Origin: Clavelina lepadiformis
Taxonomy: Eukaryota > Chordata > Ascidiacea > Aplousobranchia > Clavelinidae
Direction: 5' to 3'
Length of the DNA: 64,000 nucleotides
NCBI RefSeq assembly: GCF_947623445.1
Contig: NC_135242.1
Span: 6,634,001 to 6,698,000, forward strand
In this document: positions 11,901-63,549 of the stretch, piece by piece
Layout of the letters: each line of letters opens with the position of its first letter
How positions within the stretch are numbered: the stretch's first letter is position 1
Made by a program: the position numbers and the translations under genes
Notes under the pieces: model-generated
Told to the model about the DNA's origin: nothing
The model's input: only the letters and a program-made list of their open reading frames with translations
Databases searched by the model: none

Positions 11901-12612
11901 TCATGTAGATATCGTATTTGAATTGACCAGCTATTCGTAATTTACAGTTTAGCTGGGAAACTCAACTATTATTATAACAAAAGTCCACTAAGGTACCAAC
12001 AATGAAAAAGATGATTGCATGAACTTATGGTACATACTATGAGTAGAATGTGCATTTGTGACATGTTTGTGCAATGAATTTGAAATCTATGGAGACTGCA
12101 GTAAACCCAAAAAATAATTTTAACTTTATTATTGTTAGTTTTCTGCACACCTTTTTTTAAATTTTTTGTCTCTGTTTTATTTCCCGCTTTGAGATATTCT
12201 TTGTAAATTTAGTGTGTTGTCTGAAAATTTAGAGCATTGCACATAACTTTGCAAACTTAACTTCTATCACAAAAAAATTGTATTGAATGCGTTCAGTACT
12301 GCTACAAACCTTTGTTAGACCTCTCACTGCATTTGGTTCAGCAAAGTAAAGAAACTTGTCACAGCAGTTTTTTGTTGTATTATATAAAAATTTTAACTAC
12401 TCTGTAATTGCTAGTTGTTGGTAACAAAATTTACTGATTTGTGTTATTTCATGTTAACATACTGAAAATGTGTGTTTGTATTACTGACATACTTTTCATT
12501 TTTACCCACAGGTTTTGGCTTAATAAATTTAGTTGTGCTAAACGTATAGGTTCACGTATTGGAAAGTTGGAGTTCTATCGTTCTAAGTGGTACTAGGAAG
12601 CACCTGTTAAAA
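11901..12612. other. Spacer between TMEM254 copies
   Basis: AT-rich, no gene. A strong acceptor (pyrimidine tract then CCCACAG ending at 12511) lies about 100 bases before the second start with no upstream coding exon. It implies either a 5'-UTR intron or a trans-splice site. Confidence 0.35.
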
Positions 12613-12984
12613 ATGCAGAGCTCCAGCTTGGATAACTCTACATACTTCAAAAGAACAAATTTATATTTGGCAATTGCTGTGCTTATTGGCATGACTATGT
12701 GCCACATGGGATGTTACAGTCCACAAACAGTTCCGTACCAGTATTTGGGACCAATTGGATTGCTTTACAAGTTTTTGGTCTTTACCCATCCATGGGCAAT
12801 TCAAGTTATCTACCATGCAGCTGTGGCAGTTCATATCTTGGAAGGTATTATAGCTGTACATTTGACTAAGAAGAAAGGTATTACTGATCCAACAACAAGA
12901 TTTAAGTGGTTTGTACAGACTTCTCTCTTTGGATTTGGATCACTGATGCTGCTCACGGCATATTCACCAAAAAAATCAAAATGA
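12613..12984 (+). CDS. TMEM254: TMEM254 family membrane protein, copy 2
   Basis: Single exon, 123 residues from MQSSSLDNSTYF, exactly the length of copy 1. It has the same landmarks (STYFKRTN, YLGPIGLLYKFL, FTHPWAIQ, LTKKKGITDPTTRFKWF, AYSPKKSK). An in-frame upstream ATG at 12559 would add 18 residues that have no counterpart in the family, so the shorter start is preferred. Copies 1 and 2 agree at roughly two thirds of positions, so the duplication is not recent, and both frames are intact, so both are probably expressed. Confidence 0.8.
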   Translation: MQSSSLDNSTYFKRTNLYLAIAVLIGMTMCHMGCYSPQTVPYQYLGPIGLLYKFLVFTHPWAIQVIYHAAVAVHILEGIIAVHLTKKKGITDPTTRFKWFVQTSLFGFGSLMLLTAYSPKKSK

Positions 12985-19400: not shown

Positions 19401-22169
19401 GGAAGTTTGTTAAATCGTATTTGTTTAACAGAGTACAAAATTTCAGATAACACGAAGCAACTTCATCGATGTTGTCCACTGTACTGTATTTAACTATTTT
19501 AAGTTGAAGTGATTTGATCCCTTCAGCATAAAGTTAAGAGGCTTCCACTGTAATTGTTTTTGCCAAAAAAATTTATGTAAGTATAATATTGCTTTTCAGA
19601 CGCATACGACAAGGAGATTCAAAGTGCTGAAAACACGGTTCACATCAAAGCTGGAAATGAAATGATCTTTAACATCCAATACAAGGAATCTTTGGCTGAA
19701 CTGATAGCGAATGGTGAGAAACCTCTAAACAGAGCTCGCGTTTCACTTGATCTTTACGGCGTACAAGTTGAAGACTTAAACGCTGAGATTTCTTCACCCA
19801 ATTACCCCAACGATTACCCAAACAACGCTGATACAACCTGGTGGGTGAGGGCACCTGAAGATAAAACCGTTTCTTTTCGTTTGTTTGACATAGACATGGA
19901 AGAATGTTGTGATCGTTTGACCATCTACGACGGTTTATCTATCCACGATGATATTCTCGGTGAAATAACAGGCAGCAGTTCATCTATAAATTCAACATCT
20001 CCAATTAAAACTTATCAATCCTCCACCAACAGCATGTTTCTTCGACTTGCATCGGATTGCACTTCCACAGCTCGTGGATTTAGAGCTTTGATGCGAGCTA
20101 CTGCTCCTTCTCCAAGCAGCACAAAAGAGCCTGAGACCACAACTCCTCATCGAACCACAATTCCCAGTTATGAACGAACCACAGTTCCCAGTTATGAACG
20201 AACCACTTATCCAGTCAGTACATGTTCAGGAACAACTGAATTGTATGCACATACTCATGCACATACGTTTAGTTCTCCTGGATATCCGAATGGTTATTCC
20301 AATAACTTGGATTGCTCTTGGAGAATTTACAGCAGCTCCAGTGGTTACGTAGTAAAGCTTGATGTACTGGACATGAATATAGAAGAAAACTATGACGTCG
20401 TTTACGTTTACGACGGCTACTCTTCCAGTTTTCCTAGATTGGCTTCTTTAACCGGTAATGGAACGAATCAAATATTTCATTCCACTGGCAGTTACATGTT
20501 CATCGACTTCAGAACTGATTCTTCCGTGACAGGCCTAGGATTTCAGTTCCAATATATTGAATCATATACATCTGCGGTAACAACTGCTTATCCCGAAATC
20601 ACAACTGTCAGTAATAATTACCAAAACATAAGCGCTTGTATGGGAGGTGATCACATAGAATTGTATTCATATTCTTCTGGTTTCATCATATCACCAAATT
20701 ATCCTAACTACTATGCAAGCAATGCACACTGTACTTGGTTGATTCATGGCCAGTCTTACGACTACATTGTCTTGTTAACTGTAACTGATTTAGCCTTGTC
20801 GTCCAACGACAAAGTGACGGTATATGATGGTACCTCGCAGTATTATCCAATAATTGCAAACTTTACTTCATATTCTTGGACTGGGCAAGTTTTATCCACT
20901 GGTTCTTCAATGTATATCGAGTTTGAATCTGATAATTACTATGAAAATAGAGGCTTCAACATGACTTATTCAGCCTACTACACTTACTGTTCTTCAACGC
21001 AATACATTTCTACATATCCAAGTAGCAACTACACCCTCTACTCTCCAGGATATCCAAACTCGTATTACGATAATTTGGGCTGTACTTGGCAAGTTCGTTC
21101 TATATATTATGGCTACGTCATAAAGCTCACAGTTGTTGACATGCAGCTTGAACCATGCTGCGATTATGTTTATCTGTACGATGGAAGCACGGCTAGTTCT
21201 GCTCTTCTGGCTACCTTAGGAAATCAACAAAGTGGAACATTCTATTCAACCGGTAGTTACATGTATGTAAAATTTCAGACGGATGGATCAGTAACCTACA
21301 AAGGCTTTCAGTTTGTTGTCACCGCCGCTAGTCCTCCAGCTACAACTGTCGCTTATCCCGACTTCACCACAAATGTAATTAGTCAACCAAGCGCATGTAC
21401 AGGAGGGGATCACATCGACCTTTACTCAGGTTCGGGTTCCATTTATTCACCCGGCTACCCATCTAACTATTACAGCAATGCCCATTGCAGCTGGTACATC
21501 CACGGCCATTACTCGTACTACGTGGTAAAGCTGTCGATTTACGATTTATATTTGTCCTATGGCGACTATTTAGAAGTTTATGACGGGTCATCGCAAAACT
21601 CCCCACTTCTGCAAAATATAACTTCCAATTACTATGGCAACCCGATTTATTCCAATGGATTGAGCATGTATCTTGTATTCTCATCGGATAATTACTACGA
21701 AAGTCGCGGTTTTCAGCTCTACTATGAAGCTTCTTATTCTAGTGCAACGACAGCGCAAGCACCAAGTTTTACAGAAGCTACCACGGGAACGGCGATTGAT
21801 CAATCAAATTGTACAAGCGTTTATTACATCTACGAATCGAATAATCCATCAGGGGGAAACATAACATCGCCCAACTATCCATATAACTACCCGAACAATC
21901 TTGATATTTGCTGGTTCTTTATGCTCGAGCCCTCTCCTTCTCACGGTCATCTATATCTGACCTTCGACGACTTTAACACGGAATCTGGAGATGATGTGCT
22001 GTATGTGTTCAGTGATTATTACAACTTAATATACTCATATTCTGGTTTTTATTCCGGCGGATACTATGTTAACTTGTGGACCTACCAGTCACCGTATATT
22101 CGTTTCCGTACAAACGAGTGGAACAACAACAGAGGCTTCAAAATCACTTACTCTTACGGCCACCACTAG
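16465..22169 (+). CDS. Secreted VIT-like plus six-CUB protein, copy A
   Basis: Three exons: 16465-16581, 16873-17134 and 19600-22169; 982 residues. Residues 1-17 form a signal peptide (MLLKVTLVLFLAWKL). Residues about 45-165 resemble a VIT domain of inter-alpha-trypsin inhibitor heavy chains (GFHAYLPKNAEMSSFSM, REMAHEVLKKAKAEDHNAAIY, TVHIKAGNEMIFNIQYKESLAE). No VWA domain follows; instead six CUB domains start near residues 188, 335, 473, 590, 726 and 864, each with SPNYP/SPGYP, a YDG turn and a terminal GF. CUB1 lacks the usual first Cys. Between CUB1 and CUB2 is a Thr/Pro linker containing a tandem PSYERTT repeat. The CUB array lies in one large exon and is very Tyr/Ser-rich. Role inferred: extracellular matrix, tunic or recognition; substrate unknown. 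Paralogue B lies 3 kb downstream. Confidence 0.85.
17135..19599 (+). other. Long intron of copy A
   Basis: About 2.5 kb of AT-rich intron. Short open frames on both strands (e.g. 19039-19413) have no domains. A 13-15 base direct repeat with AGATATTGGTC occurs twice near 18066-18097. Nothing else seen. Confidence 0.4.
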
Positions 22170-25248: not shown

Positions 25249-28200
25249 ATGTTGCTGAAAGTTGGGTTAATTTTGTTTCTTGCCTGGAGGTTGGATGCCG
25301 CCATCTCTTCCACAGAAGATGATGTTTATGCCATTGGTCTCTTCCTTGAACCAGTTTATGAAGAGGTAGGTTTTATATCGCAGTAGTAGTATGTAGTATG
25401 GGGGTGCTAGGACAATTTAGAATTTTTAAAGTTAAATGAGTTCAAATTAAGCCACGTGACTTTATGAGATTAAAGGAGTTACTTGGATCTGTGGTCAAGT
25501 GACTTTAAGGAGGTCATTAAAATTTTAAAAGTGTTAGGAATCTCATCTGTAAGACATTTTTTAACTTTAAGACTTTTTATTTGTTACAAAAATCATTTCC
25601 TTTTGATAATATATCATGCGATAGCTTAGACCGCTCATGTTTATAAGTTGGATTCATAACTGAATTAACATTTTGAGAATGTGTTAATTCTAAACAGTGT
25701 CCAATTTCATGAACAGCTACAGCAAATAAATTATTCCCAGGAGGTGTCTCTTTATCAGTCCAATTCTCATCACTATCAAAATGTAAATCACCACCAGAAA
25801 CAGAACCTGGATAAAAACCATGAGTTAAAACACCACCTGAACCATTAAATGGACTTCTTTCATCATGTTCGTTTTGACAAAAACTAATTTTAAAAATCTT
25901 TTCTTCTTCATTTTCTCGTTTAACCTTTTTAAATTTAAGTTTACTACGTTTACTCTAAACTTTAAAAGCGGAATCGATTTTCTGATGTATTGAATCTTAA
26001 GCAAGTTAATTTAATGCCCAGATTAAACTTATTATGTTCTGCACCTCTGTATTTTCCTGTTACATGACAGTGGTCTCTTACTTTTTTTATCAGGTTCTTC
26101 GAATTTTCTATTACACATATGGCAATTTATTGCTGCTTTAACGTTTTCTTTGTCATCATCTGTTAAATTCATAGGTTGATTGAACTACCCTTTTTTTAAG
26201 TTTTGACAATATTCAACCTCTTCTAACATAGCTTCAAAAAATTTATAAGCAGAATTTTCAGTCGAAGAGCAATCCGTGATACCTGAAGGGTGCTCCGCGT
26301 TACCCTTATATAATTAAATTGATTTACTGATTTTATTACCATAACAACAAAATAGTTTATAAGCAGCAAGAAAAATTTTCAGATGATTTAATACTTCTGA
26401 TCATGCAAATCTTTTGAAAAGTAATATTATGATTACTTTTAAGAATTTAACTGAAGAGGAGGAAATTTTTCTATATGATTTATTTTTTGAACATTTTTAT
26501 AATAATGCTTTGATAAAAGTGCTTCTGATGGCGAACAATATTTAACTCCAATATATCCAGGTAATCAATATAATGATTTTGAAATTGAAACTTTTAATGT
26601 CACTGTACAATATAGTTATACAATTACTGTAGTATAGAAAAAAGGTTGATATTTCATCAATTTAAAATATATTTTCCAGGTACTTGTTAATTATATGAAA
26701 AATATGATGATGATTGTGAAACAATAGTATATTTTTAACCAGATTTGTCTAGACATAAATTAGATATTTTAGAATTTTTTTTACAAGATTACTATGGTAT
26801 TATTGACCATGCGATTGAAATTCCAAATCTTGACATTCCATTTCATGATGAGGCAGAAGAATTTATTCGAAACTTTATTCAACAAGATGATAATGATTCT
26901 GGTTATGAAAATTTAGAAGAAAAATCATAATTGTCTTCACGTTAACTTGTGTAAAGTTATTAATAATATTTTAAGTTACTTATTTAAAGTTAATACTTAT
27001 TTTTATTTCATGTCGACCTCATTTTATCCCTTAAAAGTCACGTGACTCCAGATCCAATGAACTCATTTAACCACATAACGTCACGTAACCTAATTTGAAC
27101 TCATTTAATCCTCAACATCCTAAATTGTCCTTGCATTCCCATATTACATACTACTCGCAGTCATGCGAAAATGTGAAAAAAGTACAGTTTATTTCTGATG
27201 TTCTCTTTTTTTCTCAATCTCAAAAAATAAAGAGACATTTCGTTTTTCAGGGACAATTATCTGATGATCCTTTATCAGCTTTGGATCAACAATCTTTGCA
27301 AGTAAAAGTGTCTAATCCCGGATTCGCAGCCGAGGACATTGGTTTCCACGCCTACCTCCCCGAAAATGCTGAAATGTCGTCTTTCTCTATGCATACCGAA
27401 GGTGTTCGTTATAATGCAAAGAAAGGCAGTCGGCAGATGGCGCACGAGGTGTTGAAAAAAGCAAAAACTGAAGACCATAATGCAGCAATTTACATCCCAA
27501 AACCACTGTTGGGTAAGTTGATGATGTTGTATCCGTTGGTTGGCAACTAAGCTAAACTATTCTCTAAAGTTTAGAGTTTAAACTCTCATTTACATTCTGA
27601 AATAGTAACCTATAAAAATAAATAAGCTCGCAAAGGTAGTCTTTTCGAATGTAAATTGATTTCACAAATTGCCCATGATGAAAATTTATAGCTTAGCTTG
27701 TAACTTTGTATTCATTATTTTAGGTCATGTTAAACGCTTAATCGTTACTGAACTATATAATGTTAAAGATTGAAACATTTCTTATCCATAAGTTCCTGCA
27801 CTATCCTGAGAAGAATGTTGATTGCGCAGATTGTTAAGCCTATGGTTAGTTCCATGAGAGTATAGTCAATAGCGTGGAAATTGTTAGTTCCAGGTTCAAA
27901 TCTAACGTTGTAAAGACTTCGAGAAAAGTTCTCTCGCCATCAGGCAGGCTGTAACAACATTGGTTTAAGCTAAGGATTGTCATTTGAGACACTTTTCCTA
28001 ATCCCGGGATTTTGGGAAAAGGTCAGTGTTTGCCCGGGATCTCGAGAAATTCCATGATTTTATAAAAAAAGATATTTTGTATTTAAGGAATGATACACCT
28101 TACACTTTTGTGACGAGTTAAGACATTACGTTATACCCGTTTGGACCTCTTTACATGTCGGGCTATTACAGCCCAGACGTTCGGACTAATAAAACAACTG

Positions 28201-30304
28201 GAAATTAATATGTGTTTATCTGACCGTATTTAAGTAATTCCTAGGACTATTTAACTAGCAATTATTTACGCCTTAAGATGAGATTCGTCAGTATCGAGGA
28301 ATATAGTCGCGAAACAGCATTAACTTCACCATCTAACTCACTTGATTAAAGAATGATAGCTCCAAGTCGGCATGTTACATTGTCGGATGTTGCTGTTATA
28401 CGAGCGCAATATGCATTAACAGTTAATTACACGTTTAGAACAATAAGTAATAGGTACACTTCTCCTAAGGCAATAGCTGCTAATTATTGAAGCTGTTTTT
28501 TTGTTTGCACATATTTAAAAAAAAACGAAATTTCCCTGGAAGAAAAATAAAATCTTGGGAATTTTTTTGGACAAAAACGCAACGAGATCCTGGAAAACAA
28601 TTGTTAGTTTAAGCATAATGTCAAAGAAAAATGGCGACGGTCAAGAGAAAAAACTGTGACAATAAATCAACACAATTAGTTCTTACACACGTATTACGTA
28701 TCGAAACTTGCTGTTTCAGGCTTTCTTTTTCTATAAATATGTTTCGACAAACCAAAGAAAGTTAAAGAAAAATTAAGCCTACATTGTAAAGTTTACTCTT
28801 GAAACGATAACTCATTTACATTTTTTTGAAAACGCCATGCACATGAAGTAATCTTCCACGCAAGTTATTAAAGTTTGACGTTGTGTTTTCAGACGCATAC
28901 GACAAGGAGATTCAAAGTGCTGAAAACACGGTCCACATCAAAGCTGGAAACGAAATGATCTTTAACATCCAATACAAGGAATCTTTGGCTGAACTGATAG
29001 CGAATGGGGAAAAACCGCTGAACAGAGCTCGAGTTTCACTTGATCTCTACGGCGTACAAGTTGAAGACTTAAACGCTGAGATTTCTTCACCCAATTACCC
29101 CAACGATTACCCAAACAACGCTGATACAACCTGGTGGGTGAGGGCACCTGAAGATAAAACCGTTTCTTTTGATTTGTTTGACATAGACATGGAAGAATGT
29201 TGTGATCGTTTGACCATCTACGACGGTTTATCTATCCACGATGATATTCTCGGTGAAATAACAGGCAGCAGTTCATCTATAAATTCAACATCTCCAATTA
29301 AAACTTATCAATCCTCCACCAACAGCATGTTTCTTCGACTTGCATCGGATTGCACTTCCACAGCTCGTGGATTTAGAGCTTTGATGCGAGCTGCTGCTCC
29401 TTCTCCAAGCAGCACAAAAGAGCCTGAGACCACAACTCCTCATCGAACCACAACTACCACTTATGAACAAACCACAGTTCCCAGTTATGAAGGAACCACT
29501 AATGCAGTTAGTACATGTTCAGGAACAACTGAATTGTATGCACATACTAATGCACTTACATTTAGTTCTCCTGGATATCCAAATGGTTATTCCAACAACT
29601 TGGATTGCTCTTGGAGAATATACAGCATCTACAGTGGATACGTGGTAAAGCTTGATGTACTGGGCATGGATATAGAAGAAAACTATGACGTCGTTTACGT
29701 TTACGACGGCTACTCCTCTAGTTATCCTCGACTGGAATCTTTAACTGGCTACGGAACGAATCAATCATTTTCCTCCACTAGCAGTTACATGTTCATCAAC
29801 TTCAGATCAGACGGATCTGTTACAAAAAAAGGATTTAAGTTTAGTTACGCTGCTGTTTTGCCGACAATTGTAACAACCGAGGTTATGACGACGGAAGAAA
29901 TTCCCACTGGCTCGGGCTCGGGCTCGGGTTCAGATGAATCCGACTGTACAATTCACCATTACATCTACGAATCCAGCGATCCATCGGGTGGTTACATCAC
30001 ATCGCCTAACTACCCATACTACTATCCAAATAATCTTGATGTTTGCTGGTTCTTTATGCTCGAGCCCTCTCCTTCTCATGGTATTCTACATCTGACCTTC
30101 GACGACTTTTACACGGAATCTGGAGATGATATGCTCTATATTTTCAGTGATTATTACAGCGAAATATACTCATATTCTGGTTTTTATCCGGGCGGAACCT
30201 ATGCTAACGTGAGGACCAACCAGTCACCATATATTCGTTTTCGTACAAACGAGTGGAATACCTACACTGGCTTCAAAATCACTTACTCTTACGACCACCA
30301 TTAA
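25249..30304 (+). CDS. Secreted VIT-like plus three-CUB protein, copy B
   Basis: Three exons at 25249-25365, 27251-27512 and 28893-30304; 596 residues. Exon sizes 117 and 262 equal those of copy A. The signal peptide, VIT-like region, CUB1 and CUB2 are nearly identical to copy A. CUB2 is followed directly by a linker with a GSGSGSGS run (from a GGCTCG microsatellite) and a final CUB (residues about 478-596) equivalent to CUB6 of copy A. Thus the middle three CUBs are absent here or were gained in A. Intron 1 holds a 1.77 kb Polinton-type fossil and intron 2 a SINE, yet the exons stay open and splice signals are intact. Role as for copy A: secreted, probably matrix or recognition. Confidence 0.85.
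25385..25525 (+). repeat. Left terminal inverted repeat of the Polinton-type element
   Basis: Pairs with 27012-27155 in inverted orientation. Shared landmarks include GGACAATTTAG, AAATGAGTTCAAATTA, TTGGATCTG and GTGACTTT. The right end is approximate. Confidence 0.8.
25577..25930 (-). mobile_element. Matrixin (matrix metalloprotease)-like segment of the fossil element
   Basis: A reading frame of roughly 115 codons with the matrixin zinc signature HEIGHCLELTHS and the downstream SVMNPTY Met-turn. Before it lie the calcium/zinc-site landmarks of MMP catalytic domains (DERSPFNG.GG.L.HGF.PG and GGDLHFDSDENWT). It lies wholly between the element's inverted ends. It is a part of a broken element and not counted as a host gene. 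Confidence 0.75.
26005..26290 (-). mobile_element. Protein-primed DNA polymerase B fragment of the fossil element
   Basis: The minus strand encodes a Cys/His cluster typical of Polinton and related virus-like polymerases: CHMCNRKF followed by RDHCHVTGKYRGAEHN. Upstream it reads FFEAMLEEVEYCQN, like the segment that precedes this cluster in the family. Only a fragment of a ~1,000-residue polymerase remains; broken. Confidence 0.8.
27012..27155 (-). repeat. Right terminal inverted repeat of the Polinton-type element
   Basis: Inverted partner of 25385-25525, followed immediately by the right copy of the CGCAGT target duplication. Confidence 0.8.
27812..27940 (+). repeat. tRNA-derived SINE in copy B intron 2
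   Basis: Box-A-like GCGCAGATTGTTAAGCC and box-B-like GGTTCAAATCTAACG lie about 70 bases apart, with a tRNA-unrelated tail (GACTTCGAGAAAAG). The tail resembles the element at 37840-38010 (GACTTTGAGAAAAAG), suggesting one SINE family. Confidence 0.5.
29909..29930 (+). repeat. Coding GGCTCG microsatellite
   Basis: Three to four CTCGGG/GGCTCG units encode the GSGSGSGS linker before the last CUB of copy B. It is absent from copy A and probably length-variable. Confidence 0.8.
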
Positions 30305-47700: not shown

Positions 47701-50700
47701 ATCCACGGGGAATTAGTGTTTGTTCGGTGAAAAATCATTAGGACTGGTATGTTCATTAGTCACCAATTTGATACTTAATTAAATCCAGGCTTTTTTGGTC
47801 AATTGTCGATTGCTTAGCACTGTTTCAATACCAAACCTTATGGCATGATACCAGCAACATAACTTGATATCTATGCTTTCGTCTTTCAGGACCGGTAAGC
47901 TTCACATGCCAGAAGATATCTGTGCGTTGGCATTCAGTACTGAACTTGACTACTGGGAAATCGACGACATTTACATTGAGTCTTGCTGCCAAGGTACCTT
48001 GACGGCGGGAGAGTAATAACTAATAACGCATAATTTGTACCGTTTCAATCAACCTCCATGTTCATTTTTTATGTCCTTCCTATTTATTGCTTGTAAAATT
48101 GCACCCTGTAAGCTTTGGTATTTAATCTTCTAATGCATTTACATTATGGGGTCTATTTTGAAAAACCGGAAATATCTAAACTTCAGCCTAATTTACTTTC
48201 AGCAAAATACCATCAGAAGAAAGAGCAAATTCAGGAAGAATTAAGGTGAAAAAATTGGCAAGTTATTTTAACATGTTACAACATATTACGCGTAATGCAT
48301 TGCAATGCGTATGCATTGCAATGCGTATGCATTGGCTGACCGACACCATAGCGTCCCATTTCATTATTATATCATATGTCTTATGTTATAACCTCCTTGC
48401 ATTAATTATTGGCTACTGCAGGTAGAGTCCCAGTTTGGTATTGATACGTTCATTGAACTGCAAGCTACGTTTTAATGACGTAAGAAAAGGAAACGTTTCC
48501 AAATAAAACCAAAGCCGATGAATTTAAGCGTTCACGTGTTCAAGTTAAAAAAATTGTAACATACGCAGTAAAAAATCTTATCATTAGCATTTTTTCTGTT
48601 CGCAGACGCGAAGCCGACGCAATTCGTGAACGACAGGGTGACGATTTCAGAGGCATGTGCTGTGCAGAGAGAAGAAGGCAAATTTGGGATTTAATGGAGA
48701 AACCAAACTCGTCTATGGCCGCAAAGGTGAGTTCTTTGTTCAGGTCATCATTCTTTTCCTCGGTCAATTAGCTTTCGCATAAAAATGTGAAAATAGCGTC
48801 GCATGACGTGGGTTATCGTGTCCTATCTCGGTAAAATACTAATAGGTTTATTAACTACTGTGTTATACTTCTTTAACTGGTGTATAGGGCTACATAAGTT
48901 TGTTTTATTTGTTCTTGCAGGTCATTGCAATCTTATCAGTACTGTTTATCGTTTTATCGACAATTGCTCTGACTTTAAACACAATGCCAGAGTTGGTTGT
49001 GAAAAAAGGTATGTAAATTACCACATTATATATCAAAGTTTATTGCATAAACAACACACGTTCAGTTTCTTGAATAAAGTTGAAAACCCACGACTTTATT
49101 GCTTATTTTAAGACAATTTTCCATTTGTATAGGTAACGATACTCACGACAATCCTCAATTAACTCATGTTGAGAGTGTGTGCATAGCCTGGTTTACTTTC
49201 GAGTACGCACTTCGTTTTATGTCATCTCCTAACAAATGGAAGTTTTTTAAAGGACCACTCAATATAATTGACTTGTTAGGTGAGTGTGGCGTCAATTTAT
49301 ATTTATACTGATATTGTCTGTTTACAAGTTTCAAGTTAGACGGTCGATCTCGCTTACTAACGTGAGTTGCGTGGGCTGCGTGGTATGCGTGGCAGATTGT
49401 GTGCGACAAGCGCATGCTTTCGTTTACATGTGAATACTTTCGTTTCACGGTTGAATGCATTTGATAAGTAATTGAATGGTTCCTGGTGCCAAGAAGAACC
49501 TAGATTCGAAAAAATGACGTCGTACAATCAATCGGCCCGGAAATACCTGGATAGTTACTGCGAAATTTCTGCCACTTCAATTAAATAATAGTTAGAGAAC
49601 ATGTGATATCAGTTTTGCAAGGTTCCACAAACATAAAACTTTTTAAATGTTTTAACTTATACAGCTTCGTCTGTGTCCGGTAAGATCATACTTTTAGGGA
49701 TCATTTCTATAGTGTGTTTCTTGAAAACGTCATTCAAGCATGACAAAACTCCAACTGCGATGACGAGTTGTAGAGTTTCTTCCTGAGCATGAAGCTTGTT
49801 CGAAGAGCATCATTTGAAGCTCTTCGAATATTGAGGAATGTTCTATTCTGCCTTTACGGTGGTTTGGAGGGAAGGAACTCATTCCGAGTGGTTGCGCTTA
49901 AAGTATTAAATCATTTCAAATAAAGGACGACAAATTGCATTTAATAGCTTGTTCGTTACTTAATTCAACGTTGTCAAAGCCGTAGAACCACCTTGTCGAG
50001 AACAAAGTTTTCACATCTTTGCACCAGGTTAGAGTAAGCGTTTTTAAATGTACGTTCTTTCAGCTATTCTGCCCTATTACATCACAATTTTCCTGACTAC
50101 GTCCAACAGTGAAATTTTGGAATTCCGGAACGTCCGTCGAGTAGTGCAAATTTTTCGTATCATGAGAATCATGCGAATTCTGAAGCTGGCTCGACATTCT
50201 ACCGGGTTGCAGTCTCTTGGATTTACCGTGAGAAGGAGCTACAACGAACTCGGCCTCCTGATGCTCTTTTTAGCGATCGGAATAATGATGTTTTCGAGGT
50301 ACGAGATAACTTATTTGCACTTTCGTAAATTTTTCACTAATGAAACACCTAAGTTCTTCTTATTGCAAATTATTACAGTATAGAGTTAAGCCTACGCTGA
50401 CAACGCACTAGTGTAATTAACAGACTATAATGATTAGATATAGGTTATTATTATTAACTTATTTATCTATACTATTAACTTATCATTAGCTTATTTTTGA
50501 TAACTTTTTAAAGCTTGGTGTACTTTGTCGAGAAGAATGAAAACGGCGAACAGTTCAGCAGTATCCCCGCCTCATTCTGGTGGGCTACAATTACCATGAC
50601 CACAGTAGGTTATGGAGATATGTATCCTAAAACACTGCTAGGTCAGTACATGCTACAATACAACATTAAAAAACGACGTCAAAAACAACATTTCATGTTT

Positions 50701-53157
50701 AGTTAAAATTGCTGAAAATACTTTTGAGACGCAGAAAGGAGATATTACTAAATATTTTGTATCCTTAACTTTCAAGGCAAGATTATAGGAGGAATTTGCT
50801 GCATCACTGGAGTGCTCGTCATCGCTCTTCCGATCCCAATTATCGTCAATAATTTTTCGGAATTTTACAAAGAACAAAAGCGGCAAGAAAAGGCGTTGAA
50901 GCGAAGAGAAGCTCTTGAAAACGCCAAACGAAATGGAAGCATCGTCACCATAAACTTGAGGGATGAATTTGCAAAAGTTAGTCTTTCGAGGAAAGCTAAT
51001 TATTTAATTGGTTATGTGATTAATTTATTGTATCTTTTATTGATTAGTTAATTTCACTAATAACTGTAAGGTAATCTTGTCTTTTAATTATAATCTTTTA
51101 GTATTTAAATGCATTGATTTTTAAATTGCTTTTCTGGAAAGATTTTGTTTATTTCTTTGCTAAACTTTTTAGTCAGTTGATACGTTTAGCCACGCGGCTA
51201 GTATCCATGAAGATGGCAATGGAAAAAAGAATACCTCTTTCAAGTACGTGGTGTTGCAGGAATTAATTTTGATACAGCAATCGTATCACTAAAAGCGCTG
51301 ATTCAATCGGGTGGAATGTAACAAAAATTTGAAATTTCTCTCAAAAAATGACAACTTTCCATTAACAGTGATCAGTCCTCGCTTAGTTCCCCACAGCACG
51401 TGTTGGTCAGGGCTGCTGATGGTAATGCACCGTATTCCCCAGCAAATGGGGCCTCTCGCGACAATGGTTTGTGCGTAGTCGATTTGGACACGTCCATCAG
51501 TGACGTGAAGCCTCCGAATTATGAGACCGCTCTCAATATCCTTCAAGAGGGTTCGGAAAAACATCTAACACCCCTACCTAATCAGTGTGAGGAATCATTG
51601 CACCGAAACGTGAATCAAAATAACCGTCGTGTTGGTTAGTCCTTATAGTGAAAATAACTAGAGTGTTGATATACATTCTTTTCAAAGAAAGATAAATTGT
51701 GTTTTTAGGCACAACGCTTGCCACGTCACGCGAATCACAAAATAGTTACGAAGCAGTTTCATCATCGTTGAAGCAAGACTTGCCATCAACATCAAGTCAG
51801 AGTGAAAGATCTGTCCTTTTCCTTTCCGCACATCGACCTGATTTCGACTCCGGATACCAACTTTGTGATATTCCCAATGAAACTGCATTCAATCTGGCAG
51901 ATAGTTCAAACACGTTTCCACACTCTAATCATCAACACATGGTGTGTCCTACAGAACCCCATGAGCCCTACAATACCCGTCAGAATCGTTTCCGATCGTG
52001 TACGGTGGCTGACGACTCTATAGACTCTTTTGCCAGTTTTGATGGAACCGGTATCAGCACTGCCTCTGATGACACTGGTGTCGTTCTCAGCACAAATGGT
52101 GGTAAGGCGAAATACGTTTGGCTTTTATAAAACATTGTTTTGTGGCCACTATGTGTTATCATAAATAAAATTTACCAAATAGCTTAATTGACAAAATGTT
52201 TTTGCCATTTAATCTTCTTGTATTGAAAAACGTTGGGTTTCATTATCTGGCTATTTCACATGTTCAGGCTGCAATGAAGATGCGCAAAGTACCGGATCCA
52301 GTTACAAAGATTTGCTTTCACCTGGTTTTGAACCCGGACCCTCGACTGCTGCATATCACCAGACACTTACCACATGTTCGTCAAAAGCACCAATGCTTGC
52401 TATCATAAAGGAACGCAGCTTTGATTCCCAAACCTCCCCAGAGAGCATACAATCTCCATCTCTCAGGGATCATGGTAAAGACAGCGCTGTAAATCCGTTG
52501 GTTGACGAAAATTCCAGCACTTCTACCGTTACCGGTGACGTTCTCCCACTGATTACGACAAACCAGCATTCCAACAAAGTTATTCCTTCTACAATTGTCA
52601 TTGCAAAAGAAATAAAGCCCGATGACGATTTCTCTTTTACGAATAAAAATGACAAAACCGCTGATAAAGTGTCGGCAAGTTTCGTCCAGCTCAATGAAAG
52701 TAATTTAAAGTACGATCAAAGACAGAAGGTCCCCACTGCTGGCGCGATCCTGGATCGACTACGTTTTTCAGCTGACCTAGGCACCGGTGAGGTCGATGGC
52801 CTAACTTGCGGAGTCTCTTTCGACGAAACAAAGCCGTTGCTGATTTCAAAAGGCACAAATTTTAATGAAGAAACTGCAGGCCATGATTCAGCTGACTACA
52901 AGCAAAACACATCTTTGGTAAACTCGACAGCGTCATCGCGCGGTTGTAACAAAATCGCTATACAGCCTAAACTTGAACTGACCACATTTCGCGAAACACG
53001 CGACAATGCATCAGTTCATTCGCCCAGTCGTGTTTTTGATATCGATGATGTAATTCAAGATACAAGCGAGGCAATACGCGACATAATTAATACAAGTGAC
53101 GTCATAGATCTTGTTATGAAAACTGCAGGTGACGCAATCGATAATGCATTGGATTGA
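44796..53157 (+). CDS. KCNB: Voltage-gated potassium channel, Kv2 (Shab/KCNB) type
   Basis: Fifteen exons: 44796-45214, 46554-46671, 47351-47520, 47890-47993, 48203-48245, 48606-48726, 48921-49008, 49133-49279, 50064-50298, 50514-50641, 50777-50976, 51173-51243, 51369-51634, 51709-52101, 52268-53157. Phases close to 1,130 residues. T1 domain about 167-300 ([13 protein letters not shown] ... [28 protein letters not shown]). S1 about 326-352. S4 [20 protein letters not shown]. Selectivity filter TVGYGD. S6 gate PIPIIV, then [21 protein letters not shown], all diagnostic of Kv2. The ~540-residue tail carries [15 protein letters not shown] (about residues 800-815), like the proximal restriction/clustering (FFAT-like) motif of vertebrate Kv2.1. 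Odd: the first exon adds ~140 residues before the usual N-terminus, and its junction recreates a Met codon (AT|G), so an alternative start in exon 2 is possible. Delayed-rectifier role is inferred from the family. Confidence 0.95.
48296..48334. repeat. Self-complementary 16-bp tandem repeat in a Kv2 intron
   Basis: The unit TGCATTGCAATGCGTA is repeated about 2.4 times. Each unit contains the palindromic core ATTGCAAT and an ATGCAT, so the stretch can pair with itself. It lies in the intron after the fifth exon. It could be an enhancer-like cluster or a simple repeat. Confidence 0.6.
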
Positions 53158-54472: not shown

Positions 54473-56371
54473 TCAAATGTTTTCAGAAAACGAACGGTAA
54501 AGAGCATTCTCCACACACATTTTCTCGTCGGTAGTTTTGCCGTCAATTGTATGGGCAACTTCATCACACGATTGATAAAGTGCGTTATCTACAACCTCAG
54601 AATCCTTGACAACATCTGTAGCCAACTGGTAGTTTTCTTTAACTCTTGTGCTGGAGTTAGTGCCCTTTGGTTTTTCAATGCTAAATCCAGCATCAAAAGT
54701 TGGACTTGGGTTGGCATGGAAAAGTACATTGTAAACTCCGGTGTCGTCTTGGGAGCTTGAAAGACTCACTTCCAAGCTCTGGAACTGTGACGAAGCTACT
54801 TGAGTGTTTTCTTGGAATTCCTCTCTAACGATCTCACTTTCTACAAAAGGTCGATAAAGAACATTGTCGACAACACTGCTATTTTCGACCACAGTTTTAT
54901 CGTTCTCATTTTTCTCGTTGGACACTTCATAAGATTTGCCAAACTCTTCCTCAGCTGTTTCATTTTGCGCAGGACTAACTGAATCTGCATCGGTCTCCTC
55001 CCAGGTAGGGTTTCCGGGAAATACCACGTATGGATCGGAGATTGTTGGCGTGGCGCGAGCATGGCTGCTTGCCATGTTGTAAGTATTTTCCTGTGACCGG
55101 CACTCGCGTTCTGACGTAAGATGTGGAAACGATTTGCTTCCGCTTGAGCGGCTGAAGTAAGAAACAAAATGGTGTGAAACTCATGCAAAAAAGTTTCAAT
55201 ACATGATTTCTGGGGGATAAGTTCACTTACGTAATTTTTACGCAGAGAACCACATCCACAAAAATGCTGAAAACGAGAAACACCGCCAACACCACGATCC
55301 AGTTCAGCAGTTGCACTTGTTGATTGTATCCTGCCAAAAGTAGCCGAAAACAAGTATTGTAGTATTTTTCTATGAAAGACTTTTGACATTAACGCTCATC
55401 ATAAACCAGTTTTCTTGCATTTACCTGAATAAGCTGAAGTCTTCATTTCCGTTGTTGTTGTAGGAGATGGTCTAGTTTTGGTTGTTGGGCGGTTAACAGG
55501 GGTTGACAACTTGAAAGCGGTTGTTTGAAATGCCATGTCACTTGAAACTGAATTCAAAAACAAAATCACATTAGATGTGAAAAACTATAGCAGTTGCAGG
55601 TTGCATATCGGTTATAACATTGAAAACCTACTTTATTGAAAACCTACTTTTGACTATATATAATGTTTCACCATATTTTGTCGCATATATAAACATCGTT
55701 ACAATTTTGTGTTGATATCAATATTAATAAACGTTTTGCTAAAGTAGATATACTTACTAGGACAATACGTTCCATCTGGAGTTATTAAACGATTGTTGGC
55801 AAAAGTTTGATAGCTCGCTGTTTGATTATATCCAGGTTTACATTTGCATTGGACGAAACCAAGTAATTCAAAAACATCGATGCAAGTTGCGTTTGGATGG
55901 CATGGATGAAGAGAAGTAGAACAAGCGTATTCAACTGACAATAACACATTTATTGCTAATACATGCAAGACTCGATAGTTTCAACAAAGCTTCACTTACT
56001 GCTTGGTTGATTAGTTTTAACTTCTTGTGATGTGTTAAAATATGTTTTAAACGCAGTTATTGCATCTGAAAAAACTTGGTATTGTGTAGCGATATGAACA
56101 CGTTTGCCGTTGACGTCATAGGTCAAGTTATGAATCCAAAAAACTAAACGGAATGAAGGCAAAGATAAAGTAAGATTTAGAATTTAACCACAGCTTACGC
56201 TTTTTTATTATCTAAACATTAAGCGTGAAATCACTATACCATGTTTATCTAAACACACTTTTCATAAGAATCATTTTGCTTGTAACCTGCGTCTGGTGTA
56301 AAAGTTGCTCCAATTGAAATGCTGATACACGCTGATATCAACAGCAAAAAAAAATAATGCTTGCACTTCAT
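54473..56371 (-). CDS. Single-pass EGF-like receptor with N-x-L-Y tail, paired receptor 1
   Basis: Six exons on the minus strand: 56371-56287, 56143-56000, 55934-55758, 55547-55425, 55330-55231 and 55151-54473; 435 residues. Signal peptide about 1-20 (FFLLLISACISISIG), then a module VFWIHNLTYDVNGKR... reminiscent of a short SEA domain, then a six-Cys EGF-like domain (CSTSLHPCHPNATC ... CKCKPGYNQT ... GTYC). A Thr/Pro stalk (RPTTKTRPSPTTTTEM) leads to a membrane helix LLNWIVVLAVFLVFSIFVD and a ~235-residue cytoplasmic tail. The tail holds four related motifs: VVDNVLYRPF, GVYNVLFHAN, EVVDNALYQS and CVENALYRSF, plus ENTYNM and DPYVVF. These look like phosphotyrosine docking sites (inference). 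Exons 1-3 are almost the same as those of the divergent plus-strand gene at 58252; the rest is unrelated. Confidence 0.75.
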
Positions 56372-56556
56372 GCCAAACTATTGATTCGTATTTATCTGAA
56401 ATCAATACATTAGCAATGCTTTCACAATGCACACCTTCTTTGAAAATTATTTAGTATCTCCGGCTACCATTAGTGCTTAGCTGCTTGTACTTAACGAGGA
56501 ATTGGTAGCAGGCGGAAGACTTTAGCGTCATCTGAGTGGGCTAGTTTTTATGATGA
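55758..56556 (-). repeat. Left arm of an inverted gene duplication
   Basis: Covers upstream region, exons 1-3 and introns 1-2 of the minus-strand receptor. Its inverted partner is 58036-58891. Exons 2 and 3 and intron 2 differ at only a handful of bases; intron 1 and the upstream part are clearly related but diverged (shared CATCATAAAAACTAGCC, AAGTCTTCCGC and GTGCATTGTG landmarks). Confidence 0.85.
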
Positions 56557-58251
56557 TTAGAAGTTAATCGATGATATAGAAAGTACATTATGTTGCTTGG
56601 AACATCACCGCCCACTTTTAGTTTTTAACGAAATCTATTTCTTGACGCCTCGTCTGTTCACTACAGGAAATCCCCACGCATAGCTCCTCTCGCATACTGC
56701 TGCTTATATTTATACCCACCTACGAATGCGTAAACCAAATCTTCGATTTACAGTAAACCCATATTAGAAAACCGTGGATGTGTCACATAGAAGTATCATT
56801 AGAAAAGAAAGATATAACTGCACTCACTAATCTCGATTTACTAAAAGGCAGACGAAATAGGATTAAGATTTGGTTACTAAAGATGAAGTTTTTGTATTTC
56901 ATTGCACTATCATTCCTGGACTTCTCTATAATCTCGTTCGAGGCAGAAAATTTACGCTGAAGACAGTTCAGTTGTTTTACACTTTTTCAATTGCAAATAG
57001 AAAATATTTATGATTATCAAAGTGATAATACCGAAGTGCTTGAAAGTGAACTTTTTTGTGGTAATGACAATGAACTACCATCCTATACCACACCGTTCCC
57101 ATAGGTTTCAAACAATTCAACATAAAACAGCGTTAGCATTTCCACAAGTATGCACAACGGCTGTATAACGGTGTATTTGGCAAATATGCAGACAGCATTA
57201 TTTATCCTTTGTCTATATAAGACGACTATTTTTACAATGCTTTACGCAGAGCAGTGAATTAAAGGAATAAACGGGAAGCGTTTATCATCTTTATCAGCTT
57301 TGAAAAACGCTTTTGTATATTATACGTGTATGGTTTTAGTCCTGTCCAAGCTATGCACTGACGGTATGTGAAAATTTGTCCCGCTTGCCATGAATTGATA
57401 ACAACTGCCATTGAAATTTGTTGAAAATTGCTGATCGAAATCTTATAATTTTGGTCGTTCTATCATATCTACTTAATCTCCATCTGTACAAACAATTAAA
57501 GACATCAAAATTAAATACATCAATTAAGTCACATGATCCAGGGATTACATCATAAAATCAGACAGGACCAAAACTTTTGAAATTTAAGTAAATTTTTGTA
57601 TTTTCTACTGAGATTGTAATTTGAGTCAAAATAGACTTTAACAAATGCACGTCGTGCTGCTGCCTTGAACAAAATTCGGAAAGTCCAGGGTTGAGAATGT
57701 AATGAAGCACAAAAATATTTTCTCAAGTAAACCTTTACCTTCTGAAAGAGTAAGTCTAGCTTAGTGAAAACAAACTATATACCATGTTTTTCTAATAATA
57801 CTGTTACGTGGCAGTTTCATTCGTTTCCAACATTGGTCTTACTGCAAACTAAAAGTTTGCTTTACACGTTTGTAAGTGAGTAGGAATGTATGCGTAGACT
57901 ATTACGAATGTAAGCGTGGGTTTGTTGCGTGAATAAGACAAGCGTTTTAAAAAAAGTTCATTTAAAAAATGAAATAAGTGGGCAAGTGTGATGCAAGAGT
58001 TATGCTGTAATTTTATATTTGGGTTTAACCACCTGTCATCATAAAAACTAGCCTTCTGGGGTTGACCCTGAAAATTAAGTCTTCCGCTTGCTACCTACTC
58101 CCGTTAAGTAGGTTACAAATTGGTAACACTTATGATAGTGGGTGATACTTATCAACAAACAAAGAAGATGTGCATTGTGCAAGTATTGCTAATGTTGTTC
58201 GTTTTGGTTTAGAGGAATACAAATCAATGGGCCTTACACTACCAGTTTGGC
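56372..58251. other. Bidirectional upstream region between paired receptors
   Basis: Both 5' flanks belong to the inverted arms. The centre (about 56560-58030) is unique AT-rich DNA. It holds a ~245-base stretch with GTTTTAGTCCTGTCC at 57333 and its near-inverse at 57559-57574 (possible small inverted-repeat element), and a 55-base segment at 57370-57430 resembling 59865-59927 beyond the plus-strand gene. No gene is supported. Confidence 0.45.
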
Positions 58252-58891
58252 ATGAAGTGCAAGGTTTGTGTTTTTCTGCTGTTGATATCAGCGTGTATCA
58301 GCATTTCAATTGGAGCAACTTTTACACCAGACGCAGGTTTATTGTACAAACAAGTATGACTTTAATTGAAAGTCTATTGTAAGAGGCATAAACTTGTTAT
58401 TCGGTGTTTCCGAAATTAGTTTATATAGAAAATTAAAAAGCGTACTTTGGGCTTAAATGTCAGATTTTAATTTATCTTTGCCTTCATTCCAATTAGTTTT
58501 TTGGATTCATAACTTGACCTATGACGTCAACGGCAAACGTGTTCATATCGCAACACAATACCAAGTTTATCCAGATGCAATAACTGCGTTTAAAACATAT
58601 TTTAACACATCACAAGAAGTTAAAACTAATCAACCAAGTAGTAATTGAAGCTTTGTTGAAACTATCGAGTCTTGCATGTATTAGCAATGAATGTGTTATT
58701 GTCAGTTGAATACGCTTGTTCTACTTCTCTTCATCCATGCCATCCAAACGCAACTTGCATCGATGTTTTTGGATTACTTGGTTTCGTCCAATGCAAATGT
58801 AAACCCGGATATAATCAAACAGCGAGCTATCAAACTTTTGCCAACAATCGTTTAATAACTCCAGATGGAACGTATTGCCCATTGCCTGCAG
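58036..58891 (+). repeat. Right arm of an inverted gene duplication
   Basis: Inverted partner of 55758-56556, containing the upstream region and exons 1-3 of the plus-strand receptor. The similarity ends abruptly at the exon 3 donor: TGTCCTA|GTAAGT in the minus gene, TGCCCATTGCCTGCAG|GTACTT here. Confidence 0.85.
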
Positions 58892-59797
58892 GTACTTTCA
58901 TCTTTGTCATAAAATCTGATCAGAACTTTAGCACGAATACAAACTCGATTCGGTCGAAACAAATCGATACAAACAATTTTAGTAGAACTTAATCAAAGTA
59001 ATCACGTGTCATTATAGAAAAAGTCTAAGTGTGAAATAAAGCATACATATAATATAATTATATTAACAATATAAAATAATAATAATTTTTGCTTTGACAA
59101 GATTTTGATTAATTATATAATAATATAGATATATTATTTTTACAGCAGATTTATTACTACTGACCTCAACCAAAGAAAATATTGAAAGCATAACTAATCC
59201 AGTGATTACCAAAAATCCAACTACAGAAAAAGTCACAAGTTTTCAAACTGACAAACAAAACAATTTTAAATTCGATTTTTTTACCGGATTTATCATTTTT
59301 GGAGTACTATTGTTTGCTTCTTTAATAACCATCGTTTTGCTAGTTTGTCAAATAAGGTATAAGCTATAAATATAAGTTTACTCTTTCAAGTGCTGGCATG
59401 AAATGAAATACCTGTGTAATTTAATTACGTACTAGATATTATTTAAGTGATGTGTTTGCAAAATTATTACGTCTTAATCAGGAAAAATGGAAAAACGACC
59501 GAAAGCAATCAAGCGACTTCCGATAAACAATCCAAATCGCATAATTCGGTTCCTTCAAAGTTGTCAGTCATTCGAGAGAAAACATGCGATGCTCCAAATT
59601 ACGTCACAATGGAAGGAAAGACTTCCAACTCCAAACACCATCAAGCTCCTCCCTGTAAACCATCCAAACCGTCTTCTTCAGAGCTGTCAATCATTCGTGA
59701 AAAGGCAGAAGGTACTTCGGATTACGTCACAATGGCAGATCAACCACAAGCAGAGAATATTTATGAGAATCAAGCTACTCATTCCTGGAGTGATTGA
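58252..59797 (+). CDS. Single-pass EGF-like receptor with YVTM tail, paired receptor 2
   Basis: Five exons: 58252-58336, 58497-58640, 58706-58891, 59146-59356 and 59482-59797; 313 residues. Exons 1 and 2 equal the paralogue's in length (85 and 144). Signal peptide VCVFLLLISACISISIG, the SEA-like VFWIHNLTYDVNGKR module and the EGF-like domain are almost the same as receptor 1. Beyond the EGF everything differs: a Thr/Asn stalk, membrane helix FIIFGVLLFASLITIVLLV, and a ~110-residue tail with a twice-repeated unit (SVIREK...NYVTME and SIIREK...DYVTMA) plus IYENQ. YxxM is the known PI3K p85 SH2 site and YxN a Grb2 SH2 site, so a signalling role is inferred. The exon 4 acceptor is a CAGCAG tandem, so one residue may be optional. 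Confidence 0.75.
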
Positions 59798-61199: not shown

Positions 61200-63549
61200 A
61201 TGGGATTGGCCGAGTTGCTCTTGGCAAGTATATTTATTTTATTCTGCATTCGTGCCAACGCCAATCTGCAAGCTACTTGCGAAATTGACGGTGATCGTAG
61301 CATGGGCCCACCTGGGCCAGTTGGTAAGCGGGGTCCTGTAGGTGCACCGGGGATTCAAGGTACCAAGGGAGACCCCGGCGACTGTAACTCATGGATGGAA
61401 GCGGTGCAGCGCTTGGAAGAACGCGTAAATCAACTGGAAAATCAACTTGAACTGAGAGGTGGTTATAGCATTGCCGTTTATATTTTGGCGAATACCGGTT
61501 TTATTAAATGAAATCAACATTAACGTATTAGCTGAAACGTGACTTGCTTGGTAATCGTAAAACCCATGATTGTTTTCATTCTTTGCTTTGTTCATGCTAG
61601 TTTTTGTAAGTTATGACGTCACTTTTTGTTTACACAAACGCAAAAATTTCTTTTCAGATTGGTCCGTGTGGAGTGCTTGGAGTGATTGCGTCACCGAGAG
61701 AAACTGCGGAAGCGGCGAGAGATCAAGACGGAGAACTTGTTTATTTTCACCGACAGGAGACTCTTGTGTTGGCAGTGAAATAGAAACCGGAATTTGTAGC
61801 CTGCCCTCATGTGAAGGTAATTGGGTTTTACAAGCACCAAAATCACTTCGGAGTTTTCATCTTTTGTTGACATTGCATTGCTTGAGAGGAAGTCATTTAA
61901 CTTATGATTTGATCTTTTCGATTTCAGCTCCTTTGATGCTTTCAAACCAAATCTCTGGAGCGGTTTTTCTTTATGACGACACCGACGAGACAAATCCTTG
62001 GAAAGGAGTGTGCGAGGTGAAACTGTTTGCTGTATAGATGTTAACTTTACTTCTCAAAGTCAGGCGGACTACGGCAATAGACGGCAGTAAACAGCAGTTT
62101 TGCCAAATATACTATTTGTCAATAAGTTTATCACAATAACAAAGTAATGATTTTCAGGGAAACCAGTTGACTGAACCAAATAAAGTGAAAATTATGAAGA
62201 CCGTTTGCAAACAAAACAACCTCACATTGGCATATGTTCGTGATTTCCCAAAGAAAACATTCACTAATCATGTAAGCGGAAAGATGAATGAGTTTTCTTG
62301 TTTACCACTCTGTTCTTAATCTTGTATTCATATTTTGACCTAAATATATAATGTGTTTTAAAATAACAGTTATGATATTATTAACAGAATTATAGATAGG
62401 CGTATACTATAATATATTTATGCATTTCCACCTTCATTATACAGTCATATGCATATAACTATAAGTGCCGTGTCGAAAGCAACCGCAAAATCACTTTAGC
62501 TAAATTTTCTGCTTTTGTCCTGTGACGATTGATTCAAACGTTTTCGCAACTGTCTGCCTGTTAGTCAATCAAGCATTTTGTGTAAACACATATACAGTAG
62601 TTCATGGCAAGGCACTTTTTTGTTCGAATTTTATTTAAGTCTGTTATTTCCATACGAGCACCATCAGTAAGTCAAATAAGAAGAATCCCGCACTCCCGTT
62701 ACTCGGGCAGCCCCAGTCCAATTTGCTGATTATGGTTGATTGCGGATACTACATAGTAGTTAAGTGTTTTGTTATAAGTGTTAAACACCTATAACATCTT
62801 TTGGATAAACTATAGATAAATTATTTTTGCTTACCCCATGTATTTAGGCCATACTTATTGTGGCTTGAAAAACATTTCCAGGTGTACTTTCAACCTTCTG
62901 ATTGTAATGATGACGAACAGTATTTGATGCAATGCCAAAGTGATGGTTGGAAACTTCACGCCACTTGTGAAAAGCAGTTGCAGGTTTTATGCACCGGTAT
63001 AGGCTACATACCTAAAATAAGATCTTCGCAGATTGTTTACATATTTTCCTTTCGTTTTATATGTCATTTCCTGTAGACGTTATGCATTTCCGGCTTCCCA
63101 GCAATCAAATCACGTGGACCATAGTGAAGCGATTCTGTGAAGGAATAGGTCGGCAGATGTGCTCTTTTGGAGATATTTTCCCTTATAATGACAATGTTCC
63201 TATCATTACTGGCGTGTTACACGGCGATTATTGGGTTCCGATCAGGTCATTTAGCGGATTATCTTAAACGATATATATGACGTTACACACATAAACTGTT
63301 TTAAACAATTCGCGTTATTTAAAGTGTCTGGTTCAAATTGTTCTTAAACTGTAACCGACAGTTGTGTAGACTATAAGTAAATATAATTAGTTTGTTATTT
63401 TCAGGGGTCCTGGAAAGGACTGGGTACAAATTGGAAACAGTCCCCATAGAACCGGCTTGAAGCTTGTAGCCCTTGGACCAGCTAGTTGGGGCGAAACAAT
63501 AACAACCAACGCTTTTAAGGAACATTTTTTCTGTTGTCAACAGTTGTAG
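61200..63549 (+). CDS. Secreted collagen-TSP1-SRCR-like protein
   Basis: Exons 61200-61458, 61658-61816, 61928-62016, 62158-62271, 62848-62996, 63077-63245 and 63405-63549. A 20-base micro-exon at 62445-62464 is proposed because the phases at 62271 and 62848 do not meet without a piece of length 2 mod 3; its donor (GTGCCG) is weak. The product would be about 367 residues. Signal peptide LLLASIFILFCIRANA; nine Gly-X-Y triplets (GPPGPVGKRGPVGAPGIQG onward); a short coiled coil (WMEAVQRLEERVNQLENQL); a thrombospondin type-1 repeat DWSVWSAWSDC with six Cys; an SRCR-like region (WKGVCE ... VCKQNN ... CEKQLQVLC). Last comes an unrecognised ~95-residue domain (TWTIVKRFCEGIG..MCSF, WVPIRGPGKDWVQIG, ending CCQQL). 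A trimeric pattern-recognition or matrix role is inferred. Confidence 0.7.

Follow-up and report, generated by a model that had tools for sequence, protein, structure and literature searches.

In the ascidian Clavelina lepadiformis, two multi-exon genes, here called A and B, lie head to head on opposite strands within C3:6634001-6698000 (contig NC_135242.1), the 64-kb stretch of DNA that was analysed and that we refer to as the window; coordinates are window positions unless they carry a number of the type L009. A and B are probably members of a three-gene cluster of small single-pass receptors, which appear to combine a common EGF-type head, homogenised by gene conversion, with different cytoplasmic tails. 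The arrangement as two divergent genes, described in a first-pass annotation of this DNA, was confirmed, with every exon open and all junctions of the GT-AG type.

According to the sequence-derived models, gene A (- strand) comprises six exons and encodes 435 residues, while gene B (+ strand) has five exons and encodes 313; their start codons are 1.9 kb apart. Both proteins consist of a signal peptide, a module of about 48 residues, one EGF-like module, a stalk containing Thr, Ser and Pro, one membrane helix and a tail. In gene A (all -), these parts are distributed over exon 1 (signal peptide, 56287-56371), exon 2 (N-terminal module, without a Pfam match, 56000-56143), exon 3 (EGF-like module, 55758-55934, at whose 3' end the similarity to B stops), exon 4 (Thr/Pro-rich stalk, 55425-55547), exon 5 (predicted membrane helix, 55231-55330) and exon 6 (tail, 54473-55151). 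The frame of this last exon is open, a state reached by 0 of 20000 shuffles of the same exon; here and below, shuffles preserve the composition in bases or residues but not which of them are adjacent. In gene B (all +), exons 1 to 3 encode the signal peptide (58252-58336), the N-terminal module (58497-58640) and the EGF-like module (58706-58891), followed by a joint exon for stalk and membrane helix (59146-59356) and a tail exon (59482-59797). Because A and B lie on opposite strands and each possess their own exons 1-3, splicing of one head to two tails in cis, an eventuality raised together with the first annotation, is excluded.

The annotated EGF-like domain is supported by EGF_3 matches in A (E 1.7e-5) and B (E 4.7e-6), although these scores lie below the Pfam cut-off. 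The module preceding it had been taken for SEA-like, a proposal that failed: a Pfam scan up to E=1 returned no SEA match in A, in B, in the third gene C or in the related head on contig C6 (both described below), so that at best a very diverged piece of such a domain is conceivable.

Over their heads, A and B are identical at 129 of 135 residues. Twelve head codons differ, six of them changing the residue (dN 0.022, dS 0.072, the non-synonymous and synonymous divergence). In ungapped comparison, 140/144 nucleotides agree in exon 2, 63/65 in intron 2 and 172/175 in the first 175 nucleotides of exon 3; exon 1 scores 80/85 by a gap-excluding per-segment measure that is not relied on here, as it also assigns about 80% to segments with no relation to each other. 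The upstream arms agree in 321 of 466 columns (69%), or at 77% of 417 ungapped sites. Hence, the near identity that had been claimed for the promoter side and exons 1-3 alike holds for the exons, whereas the promoter side is shared yet clearly more divergent. The core of intron 1 aligns no better than chance (score 23 versus a maximum of 28 in 200 shuffles). Beyond exon 3, no DNA similarity above chance was detected in intron 3 (score 20 versus a maximum of 33 in 200 shuffles) or from exon 4 to the end (22 versus a shuffle maximum of 35). The protein alignment past the EGF-like module yields a weak score of 55, equalled by 9 of 500 shuffles, which we read as shared Thr/Pro and hydrophobic composition and not as kinship. 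The reported dissimilarity of stalk, helix and tail is thus borne out.

The A-B similarity forms an inverted repeat, whose arm on the A side (55760-56842) pairs with that on the B side (57749-58880) at 78% over 1146 columns, with the identity unequally distributed. In the 384 sites of exon 2, intron 2 and the compared part of exon 3, A and B differ 9 times, whereas the 417 ungapped upstream sites contain 96 differences (Fisher p 3e-20). The resulting high-identity tract, also profiled with gaps counted (shuffled baseline 36%), runs on the B side from late intron 1 through to where exon 3 ends (58476-58885, +; limits approximate). The step from 97-98% identity in this tract to 69% upstream, with an unalignable core of intron 1 in between, is not what a duplication of the heads at a single age would leave. 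Constraint on the protein likewise fails to explain the conservation of intron 2, since this segment is non-coding. The pattern fits gene conversion between A and B over exons 2-3 as the probable cause. A head that was re-copied while its flanks drifted would strengthen the case for a design of one head with different tails.

A third gene, C, adjoins the window with the same kind of head, so that the locus holds a trio and not a pair. It starts 1.8 kb past the window end (L009 2818-4637), follows the five-exon plan of B and encodes 377 residues; as in A and B, the frame is open through every exon. Exons 4 and 5 of B are homologous to their counterparts in C: when compared from the juxtamembrane region on, the two proteins agree at 98 of 143 aligned positions, and their tails differ by dN 0.25 and dS 0.59 over 103 codons. 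Before the first EGF cysteine, C has diverged from both neighbours, sharing 34/80 residues with B and 33/80 with A. Its EGF-like module is nearly unchanged (55/57 residues identical to B, 52/55 to A), making this exon near identical across all three genes. The contrast extends to silent sites: among codons for the same residue in B and C, only 1/55 differ within the EGF-like module, compared with 12/32 before it (p 1e-5) and 21/96 from the juxtamembrane region onward with the stalk omitted (p 5e-4). Correspondingly, dS between B and C drops from 0.92 ahead of the EGF-like module to 0.027 inside it; stalk, helix region and tail follow with 0.36, 0.28 and 0.59, respectively. The B-C tract of high identity covers the EGF exon and the start of intron 3 (58695-58935, +; limits approximate), and we read it as the footprint of conversion that would have involved A, B and C over this exon.

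Relatives elsewhere were sought in the 209-Mb assembly (95 contigs), with exons scored regardless of introns and only the best candidates considered. For the head, 11 of 28 candidates passed E 0.001, namely eight exons belonging to A, B and C, a single match each on contigs C6 and C7 and a weak one on contig C2. The C6 and C7 matches, 44% and 38% identical to A, are the N-termini of two multi-EGF genes (L014 198-5901, -, and L013 4924-7580, +), in which the N-terminal module and first EGF are distantly related to the receptor head. The receptors thus look like a shortened N-terminus of a multi-EGF protein that may have been placed on new tails. Near the C7 multi-EGF gene, a frame in the same orientation ends in an apparent membrane helix and a short tail. 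With the B/C tail as query, six candidates were scored and the four passing E 1 were exons of B and of C, two apiece; with the A tail, one of two scored candidates passed E 1, and this was A itself. Among marker genes, a cellulose-synthase-like frame on contig C9 (TIGR03030 E 5e-29, at 106 bits below the family cut-off of 699; PDB cellulose synthases as matches, best E 7e-22) agrees with a tunicate origin, tunicates being the animals known to possess such a gene. GH6 yielded 0 matches, with none in the controls either; COX1 also yielded 0 while 8 of 14 controls gave a match, so that the mitochondrial contig seems to be missing from the set.

The tail of A contains, as annotated, four N-x-L-[YF] motifs, each with Val at position -5 (54854-54874, 54719-54739, 54575-54595 and 54497-54517). 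Shuffled tails contain 0.05 on average, and 0 of 5000 reach four. It also carries four YxxPhi motifs, a number not clearly above chance (p 0.06), and a scan of this tail found no YxxM. In the tail of B, both the two YVTM motifs (59600-59611 and 59723-59734) and the YEN (from 59762) reported earlier are present, and the two YxxM exceed expectation (shuffle mean 0.06, p 0.0002); one PxxPxK is found in addition (p 0.047). Gene C has three YxxM (0/5000 shuffles) and likewise one PxxPxK (p 0.037). Its tail is built from a repeated unit (L009 4200-4547, 132-nucleotide spacing, 71-76% identical), of which the B tail shows two; given this construction, the number of YxxM motifs may change through gain or loss of tail units. 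By regular expressions, none of the three tails contains an immunoreceptor tyrosine-based inhibitory motif (ITIM), activation motif (ITAM), switch motif (ITSM) or hemITAM, and for this reason neither activating nor inhibitory output is indicated. NPxY is also absent from all three tails. No basic residue occurs in the most hydrophobic 19-residue window of each protein, and the window of A contains Asp.

Traces of the history of the locus are preserved between A and B, where two dead C-type first exons sit in mirror placement. One, together with its C-type upstream region, occupies 56525-57018 (+), scores 222, where 200 shuffles reach at most 51, and is interrupted by an in-frame stop; its mirrored counterpart, again upstream region and first exon, is found at 57658-58017 (-). 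The end of a B/C-type last exon and its 3' flank are recognizable at 56988-57205 (+; pieces 56988-57029, 56999-57070 and 57110-57205). Upstream of gene C, a blastn comparison revealed no A-type first exon. The two mirrored fossils imply a former head-to-head placement of a C-type and an A-type gene, dating from the inverted duplication or earlier. We infer the following order of events: an A-type and a C-type gene would have lain head to head, and this unit would then have been duplicated as an inverted repeat, with subsequent decay of the C-type copies between the arms. Gene B would have arisen by joining an A-type head to a stalk, helix and tail of the B/C type, and later conversion would have homogenised A and B over exons 2-3 and all three genes over the EGF exon.

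At the level of sequence, the locus appears to work like a paired-receptor design: extracellular domains are homologous, the genes are linked and differ in membrane and tail regions, and the ectodomains carry a signature that probably stems from conversion. In this respect, the likeness to vertebrate paired immune receptors that had been drawn for A and B, the same head with different output, is justified. However, there are three genes instead of two, and no member was found to bear an ITIM, an ITAM or, for association with an ITAM adaptor, a basic residue in the membrane, so that membership in an immune receptor family is unsupported. The YxxM motifs beyond chance in B and C are what a receptor recruiting phosphoinositide 3-kinase (PI3K) would be expected to carry. 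With YxxM and YxN motifs, a proline motif and a short tail, these two proteins resemble CD28, ICOS and DAP10; the likeness is one of motifs, and the latter have an immunoglobulin (Ig) head or are adaptors. CEACAM1 and CEACAM3 differ from the sea-squirt genes in having Ig domains and ITIM/ITSM versus ITAM-like tails. They do, according to the consulted excerpts, share with them the attachment of similar ligand-binding regions to functionally different cytoplasmic domains (PMC5112662, PMC2832619).

The closest parallel, by analogy, appears to be SIGLEC11/SIGLEC16 of primates, which the excerpted report describes as head to head and about 9 kb apart, with repeated conversion over the recognition exons keeping their ligand preference alike (PMC5701461). 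Both loci thus have head-to-head genes a few kilobases apart, ectodomain exons apparently homogenised by conversion and different signalling ends. In contrast, the SIGLEC heads are of the Ig type and bind sialic acid, and the pair comprises an inhibitory receptor and a partner that signals through an ITAM adaptor, whereas the sea-squirt locus has an EGF head, no ITIM or ITAM and a third gene. Expression in the same cells and similar ligand binding have been demonstrated for the SIGLEC pair in the same account (PMC5701461). The fester and FcoR families of Botryllus are likewise sea-squirt receptors encoded by clustered genes with varied tail tyrosine motifs; as far as the excerpt covers them, their domains are of the Ig and sushi types, the FcoRs measure 520-610 residues and the tails carry ITIM, hemITAM or YxxI/L/V motifs; a pair in these families consists of two distinct proteins that are presumed to heterodimerise, and not of a common head with two tails (PMC12065747). 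Pfam lists neither Ig nor sushi domains for A, B and C, and their tails offer neither ITIM nor hemITAM. CED-1, MEGF10 and LRP1 are similar in combining an EGF-type ectodomain with an N-x-x-Y tail motif, which in their case binds an adaptor with a phosphotyrosine-binding (PTB) domain, as for MEGF10 and GULP via NPxY (PMC1762421). They differ by many EGF domains plus EMI and by NPxY, and the consulted part of this source describes no partner with a PI3K tail (PMC1762421). In A, B and C, the Pfam listing contains no EMI domain, and a single EGF-like module takes the place of an EGF array.

If A, B and C are expressed as modelled, one ligand would engage all three heads. Upon phosphorylation, the YxxM and YEN motifs of B and C would recruit PI3K p85 and Grb2, respectively, while A would bind PTB-domain adaptors via its N-x-L-Y/F motifs, thereby routing the ligand to uptake or into a different pathway. 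The Phe at the end of one A motif suggests a binding partner that acts independently of phosphate, hence the proposed adaptor or uptake role; a literature search for phospho-independent NxxY binding returned no match. Several observations weigh against this model. The splice donors of A exon 1 (gttaca), B exon 1 (gtttat) and B exon 2 (gtaatt) are weak, an out-of-frame ATG lies 25 nucleotides 5' of the start codon of B, and the gene models were derived from the sequence of one assembly. None of the four motifs of A has the Pro of NPxY, and in one of them Phe takes the place of Tyr. The single YxN per tail, the YEN, is within chance in both B (p 0.20) and C (p 0.27), which qualifies the earlier assignment of a Grb2-type motif to B. 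Moreover, YxxM, YxN and V-x-N-x-x-Y are what we take to be the consensus for p85, Grb2 and PTB domains, and for the A tail the best candidates of the genome search included no relative on which selection could be tested.

In a narrower form of the proposed explanation, A is a scavenger or uptake receptor that acts via PTB or clathrin adaptors and limits or feeds the signal of B and C. Its four V-x-N-x-L-Y/F and four YxxPhi motifs agree with such a role, as does the pairing of an EGF head with a PTB-bound NPxY in MEGF10/CED-1 described in the consulted text (PMC1762421); yet A has no NPxY, no EMI domain and a single EGF module, and its YxxPhi count is not clearly beyond chance, so that we consider this version an appreciable possibility that stops short of being probable. 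A classical activating and inhibitory immune pair would demand that A recruit phosphatases despite lacking an ITIM consensus, with B and C activating through PI3K and Grb2. The layout and conversion resembling SIGLEC11/16, as excerpted (PMC5701461), and the PI3K-type motifs of B and C could be accommodated by such a pair, but the absence of ITIM, ITSM, ITAM and hemITAM from the three tails and the Phe in one A motif, which cannot be phosphorylated, make it decidedly improbable.

Common heads might also be a side effect of a palindrome that is young or unstable, in which the arms convert neutrally and A, B or both are poorly expressed or dying like the C-type copies. The neighbouring fossils, the weak donors and the upstream ATG of B would be expected in this case. 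Against it stand the open frames across the exons of A, B and C, the excess of dS over dN in the B-C helix and tail, and an EGF exon shared with C, which lies outside the palindrome; we regard this scenario as unlikely. That the inverted arms were created by a haplotype misjoin is hardly credible: a single assembly was examined, but the A-B tails, the introns from 3 on and the upstream arms all differ, and the assembly was built from long reads with a quality value (QV) of 67.4 according to the part of its report consulted (PMC10884593). A cluster of receptors with one head type and different tails remains the explanation that we favour.

Where the literature search returned paired receptors that put one head on different outputs, these belong to vertebrate immunity and have Ig-type heads, as given in the excerpted sources (PMC5701461, PMC5112662, PMC2832619). 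Among the literature matches listed, with subscription journals mostly outside the scope, titles and abstract openings contained no description of the present genes. We suggest tentatively, as a rather doubtful possibility, that a tunicate independently evolved paired receptors outside the Ig and C-type-lectin folds. Conversion within a palindrome, reaching a third gene, would keep one EGF module on both PTB-adaptor and PI3K/Grb2 outputs, and a head-to-head neighbour would have decayed with its kind of tail now borne by the head of its partner. If true, the design would be convergent and independent of ITIM/ITAM logic, attained via the same genomic steps as SIGLEC11/16, and the locus would offer a compact setting for studying how heads and tails are re-paired.

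The remainder of the window also contains tandem arrangements. The adjacent frames at 11502-11900 and 12550-12984 (+) are alike by eye, the second matching Pfam TMEM254 (E 4e-25) and representing a tandem copy. Two multi-CUB genes (16789-22169 and 27089-30304, +) also stand in tandem, with an N-terminal module that is nearly the same by eye and six versus three matched CUB stretches; a Matrixin (M10 peptidase) frame is located between them (25577-25954, -). A U3 small nucleolar RNA gene of full model length (150 bits) is found at 49682-49892 (+). It is followed at 50512-51051 (+) by frames reading like a voltage-gated potassium channel, with a TVGYGD pore motif and then an S6-like segment; the second of these frames holds an Rfam K_chan_RES match barely above the cut-off, and frames without Pfam match up to 53157 may be the C-terminal tail of this gene. 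Between B and C, the region 61200-63549 (+) encodes a signal-peptide-like start, a collagen-like stretch (below the Pfam cut-off) and a TSP1 domain, followed by frames to which no domain was assigned.

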